Shown: positions 39,824 to 43,642 of the stretch, piece by piece
How the letters are laid out: each line of letters starts with the position of its first letter
How positions within the stretch are numbered: position 1 is the stretch's first letter
From: Pseudogemmatithrix spongiicola
GTDB taxonomy: Bacteria > Gemmatimonadota > Gemmatimonadetes > Gemmatimonadales > Gemmatimonadaceae
NCBI RefSeq assembly: GCF_030623445.1
Contig: NZ_CP130613.1
Coordinates: 1,674,001 to 1,738,000, forward strand
DNA length: 64,000 nt
Reading direction: 5' to 3'
The notes under the pieces: model-generated
The model's input: the letters and a program-made list of their open reading frames with translations, nothing else
The model's database searches: none
What the model was told of the DNA's origin: nothing
Translations under genes and position numbers: made by a program

Positions 39824-41470
39824 TCAGCGCCTGAACGCCGCATCGAGTACGATGCCGTCCAGCTTTTCGAGCGGCGGCACGCCGAGCAGGCGCGCGAGTG
39901 TCGGGGCCATGTCGACGACGCGCGCCGCCGAGGAATCCCGGCCCGGCGCGAACGCGGCGCCCCAGAACAACACAGGCACCTTGGCGTCGTAGTCGTGCGG
40001 CGAGCCGTGCGTCGCGATCGAGCCGCCGTAGAGCCAGTACGGCTCCATGGTGATCGCGGCGATGGCCTCGCCGCCCGGGCGGAACATGTGGAGCCAGCGC
40101 CGCGCATAGTTGTCGCGCACGGTGTCGGCACGCACGATGTCGTCGATCACGTCGACACGCTGGATCCCGCGCACGCGCCGTGCGAGGCGCGCGAACTCAC
40201 GGGCGACGGTGCGCACCGCGGCGTCCTTGCCCTGCACCTTGCTGCGGTCCACCTCGAGGACGCCCCAATCGAGGTTGAAGGCCGTCGGGTCGAGCTCAAG
40301 GCGTCGAATGACCGGCGCGACGCCCGCGATCACCGGCTCCAGCTCCCGCGAGGTGAGCCGCGAGGCCCGCGAGTTGTCGCCCCACGTGGAACGCACCTCG
40401 GGAATCGGCGCGACGCCGTGGTCCGCGGTCAGGGCGATGACCACGTTGTCGCGGCCGCGGACCGCAACCAGCGAATCGAGGAAGGTGCCGAGCATGCGGT
40501 CGATGCGCAGCATGTGGTCGTGCACCTCGCGCGAATCCGGGCCCCAGCGATGGCCGACGGCGTCCAGCGTCGAGAGCGACACGGCGAGCAGGTCCGTACG
40601 ATCCGCACTCGCGCCAAGCTCCATCTCGCGCAGCGCCCGCCACGCGAAGTCGAGCGTCATCTGGTCCATCCACGGATACCCGATGATGGCGTTGCGCGCG
40701 AGTTCCACGTCGGTCGGCAAGGCATGCGGGAACGCCGGCTCCTGCCCCGCGCTCTCCGCCTGGACGGAGTCCGGTTCCGGGTAGTTCTCGACCGGCAGCA
40801 GGAGATCCCACACCCGCCCGGCGTAGCGCGTGCCCGCGTGATCTTCCGCGTTGAACGCCCGCACCCATGCCGGCAGGCTGTCGCCGTAGTAGCTGCTCGT
40901 GGTGAACTTGCCCGAGCGCTGCGCGTACCAGAACACCGGATACTTGCCGGCGCCGATCGGCAGGATGGCGCCACGGTCCTTGCGCGAGACGGACAGGATG
41001 CGCGCATCCGGTCGGGCGGCGCGCAGCCAGTCCGTGAGCGTGGTGCCCTTGAACCGGAACGGCGATGCCCCCACGCCGTCGCTCTCCAGCAGTGGCGCCG
41101 TCGGCGTGTTCACGCCGGCGGAGTTGCTGGCGATGCCCGTTGAGTAGGGAAAGCGACCGGACATCGTCGACGCGTGGCCGGGCGCCGTCTCCGTAATCGC
41201 ATGGTCGTGCACGCCGTTGACGAAGAAGCGGCCTTCATCCAGCAGGCGCCGGAAACCGCCCGTGAACTGGCTGTCCCACCGCGTCAGGTAGTCCGGTCGG
41301 AGTTGGTCGACCGTGAGAAACACCACCAGACGCGGCCGCGGGCCCTGCGGCGTCGGTGCTGCGATCGGCGCGTTGACGCTCGGCGGCGTCTGCGGGGCGC
41401 GCTGGGCGCACGCGGGCAGCGCAACCAGAAGGGCGGCGAGCGTCACCGCAGCGGAGGAGGCACGACGCAT
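39824..41470 (-). CDS. Secreted PafA-type alkaline phosphatase/phosphodiesterase
   Basis: Protein of 548 residues with a signal peptide (ALLVALPACA before Gln). It belongs to the alkaline-phosphatase superfamily: metal Asp in FLTVDQLRPDY, the nucleophile Thr in ITETAPGHAST, the second metal set in LTADHGVAPIPE and the late His in HGSPHDYDAKVPVLFWG. The motif SRKDRGAILP, holding Lys and Arg near the phosphate, matches PafA of flavobacteria. It would release phosphate from monoesters in the periplasm or outside. The Cys in PACAQ could instead be a lipobox. No pho box is recognised. Confidence 0.9.
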   Translation of the reverse strand: MRRASSAAVTLAALLVALPACAQRAPQTPPSVNAPIAAPTPQGPRPRLVVFLTVDQLRPDYLTRWDSQFTGGFRRLLDEGRFFVNGVHDHAITETAPGHASTMSGRFPYSTGIASNSAGVNTPTAPLLESDGVGASPFRFKGTTLTDWLRAARPDARILSVSRKDRGAILPIGAGKYPVFWYAQRSGKFTTSSYYGDSLPAWVRAFNAEDHAGTRYAGRVWDLLLPVENYPEPDSVQAESAGQEPAFPHALPTDVELARNAIIGYPWMDQMTLDFAWRALREMELGASADRTDLLAVSLSTLDAVGHRWGPDSREVHDHMLRIDRMLGTFLDSLVAVRGRDNVVIALTADHGVAPIPEVRSTWGDNSRASRLTSRELEPVIAGVAPVIRRLELDPTAFNLDWGVLEVDRSKVQGKDAAVRTVAREFARLARRVRGIQRVDVIDDIVRADTVRDNYARRWLHMFRPGGEAIAAITMEPYWLYGGSIATHGSPHDYDAKVPVLFWGAAFAPGRDSSAARVVDMAPTLARLLGVPPLEKLDGIVLDAAFRR

Positions 41471-41591: not shown

Positions 41592-42614
41592 ATGTCTGAC
41601 TTCTCGCAGTCCCTGATCTGGCGCAACCTGTACGTCCGCACGACCCTGTGGTACGCACTCTGCGGCGCCATCACCTGGGCGCTCCGCAACTACGCGCCGC
41701 CCTCATGGGGAGCCCTGGGCAGCGAAACGCTCGGCAATCTCGTCGGCGGCGCCCCTGCCCTCACGGGGAACGCCGAACCCACGACGCCGACGGCACTCGC
41801 CGCGAGCATCGCGATGTTCACCGGCTTCGCCGCGTCACTGCCCGTCGCGTGGATCTACACGCTCACGCGCCGCAAGAAGGGCTTTCAGCAGTCCGTCGTG
41901 CAGACGTACCTCATCCTGCCCGTCGTCGCGGCCGGCATCGTCGTCCTCGTCAAGCACTCCCTCGCCCTGGCGTTCTCGCTGGGCGGCATCGTCGCCGCCG
42001 TGCGCTTCCGCACCTCGCTGGACGACTCCAAGGATGCGGCCGGCATCTTCGTCGTCATCGGCATCGGCATGGCCGCCGCCGTCGCGCCGTCCGTGGCGTG
42101 GGTGATTTCGGTGGGCTTCAACCTCTTGATGCTCATCCTGTGGTGGTCCGACTTCGGCCGTCCGCAGGCGCTGGAGGGCAAGGCCGCCGAGAAGAAGCTC
42201 GAACGCGCGCTCAGTGTCGCGAACCGCACGGGCACGTTCCTGGCGAAGATGGACGACGAAGTGCTGAAGGCGATGTCGCCCGAGCAGCTCGAGGCGCTCG
42301 CCGACCGGGCCTGGCGGCGCCGCAAGCGCAACGATCCCGACCTCGCCGAGGAGGACTCGGTCCCGGAGCAGGCACCGCGCTACGAGCGTCTCCTGCGCCT
42401 CCGCACGGCGGACGTCGAGCGCACGCGCGCCCTCTGCGAGCCGCTTTTCCCCTCGTTGTTCTCCCAGTGGAAGTTCCTCGGCAGCGTGCGCGAGAACGAG
42501 GTGCGCGTCGTCGAGTACGGCGTCTCGCTGGCGCCGACCGTGACCCCGGGCGTCGTGTCTGACGACCTCGGCCGCCTCCCCGACTCGCCGCTCCGCGGCG
42601 TGGAGTTGCGATGA
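41592..42614 (+). CDS. DUF4956-family membrane protein
   Basis: Protein of 340 residues. Four transmembrane helices lie in the first 190 residues (about 18-35, 72-92, 102-122 and 145-185), including the conserved stretch AFSLGGIVAAVRFRTSLDDSKDAAGIFVVIGIGMA, which is the DUF4956 hallmark. The C-terminal 150 residues are charged and cytoplasmic. The ATG at 41592 is chosen because upstream residues are not membrane-like. Family members often sit beside CotH-like and VTC-type polyphosphate polymerase genes; here the next gene, overlapping by 4 bases, is CotH-like. Function unknown. Confidence 0.87.
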   Translation: MSDFSQSLIWRNLYVRTTLWYALCGAITWALRNYAPPSWGALGSETLGNLVGGAPALTGNAEPTTPTALAASIAMFTGFAASLPVAWIYTLTRRKKGFQQSVVQTYLILPVVAAGIVVLVKHSLALAFSLGGIVAAVRFRTSLDDSKDAAGIFVVIGIGMAAAVAPSVAWVISVGFNLLMLILWWSDFGRPQALEGKAAEKKLERALSVANRTGTFLAKMDDEVLKAMSPEQLEALADRAWRRRKRNDPDLAEEDSVPEQAPRYERLLRLRTADVERTRALCEPLFPSLFSQWKFLGSVRENEVRVVEYGVSLAPTVTPGVVSDDLGRLPDSPLRGVELR

Positions 42615-43642
42615 TCCTGCGTGCCCTCTTCGTCCTGACCGTCGCGTCCGCGACGGCCGCTCCGATCGCCGCGCAGCCGTTGTTTCGCGACCAGGTCCCG
42701 GTGGCGGTGACGATCACGACCAACCTGCGCGACCTCACGCGCGAGCGCGACTCGACGCGGCTCCGCTGGTTCGGCGCCGAGTTGAAGTACGCCGACAGCG
42801 CGGGCAACGCGGTGACACTGCCCGTCGAGGTGCGCGCCCGCGGCCATTTCCGCCGGCAGTCCAGCAACTGCACCTTCCCGCCGCTCTTCCTGCGCGCCGG
42901 GCGCGAGGCACGCGACGGCAGCCTGCTGCAGGGCAATCCGCGGCTCAAGATCGTCACGCCCTGCCGCCCGGCGAGCACCGATTACCAGCAGTACATCTTC
43001 ACGGAATACAAGGCGTACCGCTCGTACGCCGTGATCGACTCCATCCACCACCGGGTGCGGCTCGCGAACATCACGTACGTCGACTCACTGAACCGCGTGC
43101 GCCCCATCAGCGTCTCGGCGTTCTTCATGGAGACCGACGAAGAGGTGGGTGACGAGCATGCGCTCGAGGTGTTCGAGCAGAAAGGCGCGCTCTGGGAAGT
43201 CTTCGACGGCCCGCACATCGACCGCATCGCGCTCTGGGAGTACGCCATCGGCAACACCGACTGGTCCGTGTCGGGGCTGCACAACATCGTGATGTTCCGC
43301 GACAGCTCGGGCGCGTATCGGCCCGTCGCCTACGACTTCGACTGGACCGGCTTGGTGAACCCGCGCTATGCGTTCCCCAACGCCACGCTCGGCATCCGGA
43401 CGGTGCGCCAGCGCTTGCATCGCGGCCCCTGCCGCACGGCCGAGCAATGGGCGCCGACGATCGCGCATTTCAAGTCACGCCGCGCAGCCATCGACAGCAT
43501 CTGGACCACGCCGGAGCCCGGGCAAGACGCGCGGCGCCTCGAGGAGGCGAAGCGGTATCTCGATGAGTTCTGGCGGGTGCTGGATGATCCGCGGGAGTTC
43601 AAGCGCGAGGTCATTGACCAGTGCCAGCGGCACGGTAACTGA
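42611..43642 (+). CDS. Secreted CotH-kinase-like protein
   Basis: Protein of 343 residues with a signal peptide (ATAAPIAA before Gln). The central and C-terminal part has LWEYAIGNTDWSVSGLHNIVM and PVAYDFDWTGLVNPRYA, which resemble the metal- and catalysis-associated Asn-Thr-Asp and Asp-Phe-Asp motifs of CotH-type atypical kinases; an upstream FEQKGALWEVF may supply the nucleotide-binding Lys. It could be an extracytoplasmic phosphotransferase acting with the DUF4956 membrane partner. The assignment is from motif resemblance only. Confidence 0.6.
   Translation: MILRALFVLTVASATAAPIAAQPLFRDQVPVAVTITTNLRDLTRERDSTRLRWFGAELKYADSAGNAVTLPVEVRARGHFRRQSSNCTFPPLFLRAGREARDGSLLQGNPRLKIVTPCRPASTDYQQYIFTEYKAYRSYAVIDSIHHRVRLANITYVDSLNRVRPISVSAFFMETDEEVGDEHALEVFEQKGALWEVFDGPHIDRIALWEYAIGNTDWSVSGLHNIVMFRDSSGAYRPVAYDFDWTGLVNPRYAFPNATLGIRTVRQRLHRGPCRTAEQWAPTIAHFKSRRAAIDSIWTTPEPGQDARRLEEAKRYLDEFWRVLDDPREFKREVIDQCQRHGN

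Follow-up and report, generated by a model that had tools for sequence, protein, structure and literature searches.

The window, the whole stretch of 64,000 nucleotides analysed here, belongs to a genome assembled as a single contig of 3.26 Mb. It carries a gene for a DUF4956 membrane protein followed directly by a gene for a CotH-like protein of secreted type; Table 1. The 4-base overlap between these two genes, described in an earlier note made from the sequence, was found again, and the product of the first gene matched PF16316 with 42.5 bits (cut-off 30.6, E 7e-11). Exactly the same length of overlap was observed in 17 of the 30 DUF4956-first pairs examined, and translation of the two genes may be coupled through the shared ATGA. 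Comparison with the orthologues in a second genome (G005) gave dN/dS values of ~0.21 for the DUF4956 gene and ~0.20 for the CotH-like gene, which suggests purifying selection on both. A homologue of the divergent PF01663 phosphodiesterase recurs close to the CotH-like gene beyond the genus, both in further genera and in a different family of the order (L041-L043, L090, L091, and L096), and it does so even at CotH-like loci where no DUF4956 gene was found. The phosphodiesterase is possibly an accessory gene only.

Table 1. Genes and sequence features at the DUF4956/CotH-like locus, in window coordinates
Feature	Position	Strand	Size or basis
DUF4956 inner-membrane protein gene	41592..42614	+	340 aa; PF16316
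CotH-fold kinase-like protein gene, secreted type	42611..43642	+	343 aa; AF2 model and structural alignment
ATGA overlap, start of the second gene on the TGA stop of the first	42611..42614	+	sequence
Signal-peptide-like N-terminus, ~22 residues	42611..42676	+	hydropathy and sequence
Predicted catalytic segment GNTDWSVSGLHNIVMFRDSSGAYRPVAYDFD, residues 214-244 (Asp217, Asn225, Asp242)	43250..43342	+	conservation and motif parallel
Type I phosphodiesterase / nucleotide pyrophosphatase, secreted, divergent neighbour	39824..41470	-	PF01663, 110 bits
RecQ-type helicase gene	downstream of the pair, convergent		named from sequence alone

The CotH-like protein and its membrane partner

When both model sets were scanned with the CotH-like protein, no Pfam match at E <= 10 and no NCBIfam match were obtained. 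A phmmer search against the PDB returned nothing useful, and a profile search of the window's own genome with PF08757, the CotH family, gave no match. An AlphaFold (AF2) model, calculated from an alignment with 18 relatives (24-84% identical), had a pLDDT of 86.7 and a pTM of 0.87. Foldseek alone found no match to this model at E <= 0.001. Foldseek's top 1000 chains were then re-ranked with VIA-align, as a second look at that list rather than a full search, and B. cereus CotH was placed first (5jd9; Z 19.5, rmsd 3.1, 265 residues aligned) and second (5jda; Z 19.2, 267 residues). CtkA (Z 12.7), HipT (12.6), PI4KIIalpha (11.8), and Fam20 (11.1) ranked below CotH, and the best 50 of the 1000 chains were kinase-fold entries only. 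By VIA-align, the protein is predicted to adopt the CotH kinase fold, and the kinase-like model bears out the resemblance to CotH that had been proposed from short motifs.

Both of those motifs are present, as Gly-Asn-Thr-Asp at residues 214-217 and Asp-Phe-Asp at residues 242-244. Asp217, Asn225, and Asp242 are conserved in all 57 distinct relatives, as are Glu132, Glu174, Gly78, and Arg81, while Lys113 is found in 55 of them. The catalytic segment reads N-T-D...L-H-N...Y-D-F-D, compared with N-F-D...V-H-N...W-D-Y-D in B. cereus CotH, and it parallels the stretch NFDGFVHNYALY...IPWDYD of that protein in a motif match made by eye. The putative catalytic Asp and the putative metal-binding Asn and Asp were assigned by position, and their equivalence to Asp228 and Asp251 of B. 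subtilis CotH is likewise a motif match by eye; variants of these two B. subtilis residues are catalytically inactive, according to the available text of PMC7821199.

A PDB search with the family profile gave HipA-type kinases, weakly (E about 0.05), exactly at the catalytic segment. When the family was aligned by hhalign to PF08757 proteins from relatives, E values of 0.2 and 0.17 were obtained, and the best local hit from the 57-row alignment covered the catalytic segment without being significant. As the hhalign scores are not significant and there is no Pfam match, sequence homology to PF08757 is not claimed, and because sequence methods fail to join the two, the protein is called CotH-fold and a non-member of PF08757. 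The structural score against CotH, together with the invariant catalytic set, therefore argues for a CotH-fold, kinase-like family without a Pfam model, which is conserved and has been missed by both Pfam and NCBIfam. The family is probably active as a kinase, as judged from the residues kept and from the model.

The N-terminus has a signal-peptide-like hydrophobic stretch (from hydropathy, with the cleavage site placed from sequence only), suggesting that the protein is exported. Cys87, Cys118, and Cys274 are present in 57/57 relatives and Cys338 in 54/57, with gaps in the other three; this set would fit disulfides outside the cytoplasm. The protein is like Bacillus CotH (5jd9, 5jda; PF08757) in its fold of ~265 residues and in its N-x-D, H-N, D-[FY]-D segment, and unlike it in lacking a PF08757 match, in an identity of 11%, and in having a Cys set of its own. 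Its gene is coupled to DUF4956, whereas that of Bacillus CotH goes with cotB and cotG. We know of no spores in the group to which the window's organism belongs.

For the DUF4956 protein, PF16316 was the sole Pfam match at E <= 10, with none to PF02308 (MgtC). Its AF2 model was poor (pLDDT 68 overall, pTM 0.39), with blocks within the C-terminal 80 residues at ~74-88. In the fold search, the small, ferredoxin-like C-terminal domain (about residues 263-340) outweighed the membrane part, and this domain aligned to ACT/ferredoxin-like chains with Z about 8-9 and many ties. One of them was the C-terminus of MgtC (7qa5), whose Z of 8.1 was shared by many unrelated ferredoxin-like chains. With hydropathy also considered, the protein is predicted to consist of an N-terminal membrane part and a C-terminal ACT-like domain, the latter cytoplasmic. 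The ACT-like domain may be a point of likeness to MgtC, whereas the missing PF02308 match is a point of difference, and a comparison of the two by hhalign was not significant. In one relative (G067), a weak PF16316 hit (21 bits, below cut-off) overlaps a true MgtC match.

Conservation of the pair across genomes

Among 99 genomes, the CotH-like protein was found in 62 and PF16316 in 65. A DUF4956 match lay within 3 kb and on the same strand for 44 of the 65 CotH-like matches, with DUF4956 first in 41 of these pairs and the reverse order in 3, and the pairing is well above chance. DUF4956 and the CotH-like gene are thus a real, conserved two-gene unit. The earlier reading of the two genes as a module is supported by this coupling, but the pair is not obligate, since 5 of 16 same-genus genomes (G001, G004, G009, G012, and G013, each of 2.3 Mb or less) have the CotH-like gene without a PF16316 match. 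DUF4956 is therefore not strictly required. The profile of the CotH-like family matched 119 of 298 Gemmatimonadota genomes.

When 50 DUF4956 proteins were placed in a tree, the 29 CotH-paired, DUF-first proteins formed one side of a single branch with a support of 96. The pairing state changed once on this tree, compared with a mean of 16.3 changes after shuffling, and none of 500 shuffles was as low. The three reverse-order proteins had been left out; when these and L085 were added, the number of changes was 5, and the three fell near other lineages. The combination therefore probably arose more than once. By the phylogeny of its DUF4956 proteins, the main pair represents a single lineage, and the reverse-order loci probably came together independently. 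A pair was also found in a contig labelled Planctomycetota (L037, JADLHO010000103.1), the DUF4956 protein of which lies inside the Gemmatimonas-type clade of the tree; the contig is probably mis-binned.

Several DUF4956 genes of relatives have partners other than the CotH-like gene. Such unpaired genes adjoin calcineurin-type phosphoesterases, Ser/Thr kinases, or ~860-aa proteins of secreted type, and phosphate chemistry is a theme common to these neighbours. Protein-kinase-type genes adjoin DUF4956 in five loci, Pfam-confirmed in L072, L076, and L087, where the neighbouring genes have a short overlap, and recognised by sequence start in L082 and L088. The ~860-aa proteins (L077, L086, L069, L078, and L087) have, by eye, a kinase-like motif of the D-W-D-R-H ... 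R-D-R-D kind in the N-terminal half, and a C-terminal half that resembles an outer-membrane barrel, again by eye only. No Pfam family was found in the two that were scanned (L077 and L069), a PDB profile search with these proteins found nothing, and their profile-profile comparison with the CotH-like family was not significant.

Polyphosphate enzymes near the pair

The absence of a VTC partner, pointed out previously for the window, extends to all 99 genomes, its own included, none of which matched PF09359 in a profile search (control: a match in 3 of 14 known genomes). The window's genome has one plain PPK1 gene (2285337-2287352), about 570 kb from the pair, and polyphosphate kinase is unlinked to the pair in the window's genus. 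Beside several relatives' CotH-like or DUF4956 genes, a protein of ~1050 aa was found, which has a CYTH-like domain at its N-terminus in addition to four PPK1 domains. The CYTH match was above cut-off in 2, below it in 3, and missing in 1 of the 6 PPK1 proteins scanned.

PPK1 matches occur in 90 of the 99 genomes, and a locus was classed as fused if its match extended into the N-terminal part, ahead of query residue 250. Of 19 fused CYTH-like/PPK1 loci, 15 had a CotH-like or DUF4956 match no more than 6 kb away and always on the same strand; one fused locus (G094) is an N-terminal piece only, at a contig start. Among plain PPK1 loci, 2 of 93 had such a match at this distance, both in G081 (Fisher p 3e-13 for fused versus plain). 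The order is DUF4956-CotH-PPK1 in G026, G052, and G056, and CotH-DUF4956-PPK1 in G065 and G074, while CotH and PPK1 stand together in G059, G091, and G097. All 18 genomes with a fused PPK1 have a CotH-like or DUF4956 gene (Fisher p 0.003), a weaker result than the distance test.

Outside Gemmatimonadota, the profile of the CotH-like family matched 14 of 129 genomes from the order of a Bacteriovoracaceae record. In one Bacteriovoracales-type genome (G420), a VTC gene (PF09359, 119 bits) follows the CotH-like homologue after 2 bases. The triphosphate-tunnel fold is common to CYTH and VTC domains, and the CYTH-like/PPK1 fusion may for that reason be a functional counterpart of VTC. The earlier view that a polyphosphate partner is missing is true of the locus in the window's genome; it fails in related genera, which have the CYTH-like/PPK1 fusion, and in G420, which has VTC. 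The polyphosphate connection is stronger than had been supposed, and runs through a different enzyme.

Possible functions of the pair

CotH, a polyphosphate polymerase, and DUF4956 are accessory genes of Gram-positive pel loci, according to the available text of PMC7112168. Deletions in S. intermedius, as given in the available text of PMC12345266, revealed that Pel is still made without any one of the SIR_1592-1594 trio. The mutant of SIR_1592 (4 TM plus ACT, described there as an MgtC-domain membrane part with ACT) made more Pel, and that of SIR_1594, the secreted CotH, made less; in both, aggregation in one medium fell by more than half. For the polyphosphate-polymerase mutant, the same text reports no change, with aggregation kept, and its authors fail to find synteny of the trio outside the Pel locus. 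From its architecture and place, SIR_1592 would be a DUF4956 protein, a name that does not occur in the available text of that paper. The pair described here is like the trio in joining an ACT-bearing membrane protein to a secreted CotH-type protein, with a polyphosphate enzyme nearby in relatives. It is unlike the trio in that neither VTC nor PelG was found in the window's genome or in 98 relatives (PelG, PF16933, 0/99 genomes including its own; control: a match in 1 of 14), in that its CotH-type protein lies outside Pfam, and in that the polyphosphate enzyme is the CYTH-like/PPK1 fusion in relatives and is unlinked in the window's genome. The yeast VTC complex couples cytosolic polyphosphate synthesis to membrane translocation (PMC9911596, available text). 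The likeness to this complex is one of idea only, namely polyphosphate synthesis beside a membrane partner. No published description of a DUF4956-CotH-PPK1 unit was found in the available text of the literature searched on the module.

The chances are about even, in our judgement, that the pair is an extracytoplasmic phosphotransfer module of the envelope, coupled to phosphate or polyphosphate metabolism. In such a module, the exported CotH-like protein would phosphorylate an envelope or extracellular target, either a protein or a glycan. The DUF4956 protein would sense the cytoplasmic phosphate or nucleotide state through its ACT-like domain, and might supply or gate what the CotH-like kinase needs. 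A polyphosphate-making neighbour recurs, as the CYTH-like/PPK1 fusion in Gemmatimonadota and as VTC in G420 and the pel loci, and the module therefore appears tied to polyphosphate metabolism. The deletion phenotypes of the streptococcal SIR_1592 and SIR_1594 genes (PMC12345266, available text) also speak for a role at the cell surface. Against the phosphotransfer reading, this link is absent at the locus of the window's genome itself. Further points against it are the sequence and Foldseek searches that did not reach CotH, the five same-genus genomes without DUF4956, the poor DUF4956 model, and, in S. intermedius, the unchanged polyphosphate-polymerase mutant and the continued production of Pel.

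Outside the cytoplasm, where there is little free ATP to draw on, a kinase depends on some donor of phosphoryl groups. To our knowledge, neither a donor nor a target has been established for bacterial CotH-type proteins outside spores. A bolder version of the proposal, which is very unlikely to be correct as it stands, would make DUF4956 a conduit that links cytoplasmic polyphosphate synthesis (by VTC, CYTH-like/PPK1, or unlinked PPK1) to the outside, with the CotH-fold kinase taking phosphoryl groups from the exported chain and not from ATP. If exported polyphosphate were the donor, this would explain how kinases can act in a place so poor in ATP. The repeated grouping of a CotH-fold protein, DUF4956, and a polyphosphate enzyme makes the donor question testable outside the pel locus, in small units of two or three genes.

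The phenotypes of the streptococcal mutants, in which Pel levels and aggregation are altered on loss of SIR_1592 or SIR_1594 (PMC12345266, available text), together with the accessory place of CotH and DUF4956 in pel loci (PMC7112168, available text), favor regulation of a surface polysaccharide. The two proteins would then adjust the production or the properties of an exopolysaccharide, through phosphorylation of the glycan or of its synthase, and polyphosphate would be incidental. A Bacteriovoracaceae homologue points the same way, its gene being located 27 bases downstream of a GH114 glycosidase gene (L048:8996-9919; PF03537, 85 bits); the sole DUF4956 match of that genome is on another contig. 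An explanation through Pel is weakened, however, because none of the 99 genomes has PelG. In the loci read, where few neighbours were scanned, nothing beside the pair was recognised as a polysaccharide synthesis cluster, and PPK1 fusions are strongly associated with these genes; regulation of a polysaccharide is thus considered unlikely. The kinase fold might instead be used for a different reaction: it could transfer AMP, for example, or phosphorylate a lipid or a small molecule. PI4-kinases, HipA/HipT, and Fam20 all align to the model (Z about 10-12.7), and the fold therefore leaves the substrate unfixed. Use of the fold for another reaction is nonetheless distinctly unlikely, with the protein kinase CotH by far the best match and the CotH-type catalytic segment kept.

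That two unrelated genes share an operon by linkage, without a shared function, is most improbable. The five same-genus genomes in which the CotH-like gene stands without DUF4956 are consistent with mere linkage, as is the neighbouring RecQ-type gene, which is also conserved within the genus. However, the pair is kept across genera and in other families of the order, and it has a distinct DUF4956 lineage, whereas outside the genus the RecQ-type gene was present in one examined locus, beside an unpaired DUF4956 gene. The phenotypes of the published trio are, moreover, related (PMC12345266, available text).

In contig 88 of G420, the CotH-like and VTC genes are followed by an open frame (L143:5545-5967), the end of which lies at the contig edge and consists of Ser-Lys-Pro repeats. 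These repeats resemble the Ser/Lys/Arg repeats that CotH substrates carry, according to the available text of PMC7821199, and this single case is only suggestive of a candidate kinase substrate.
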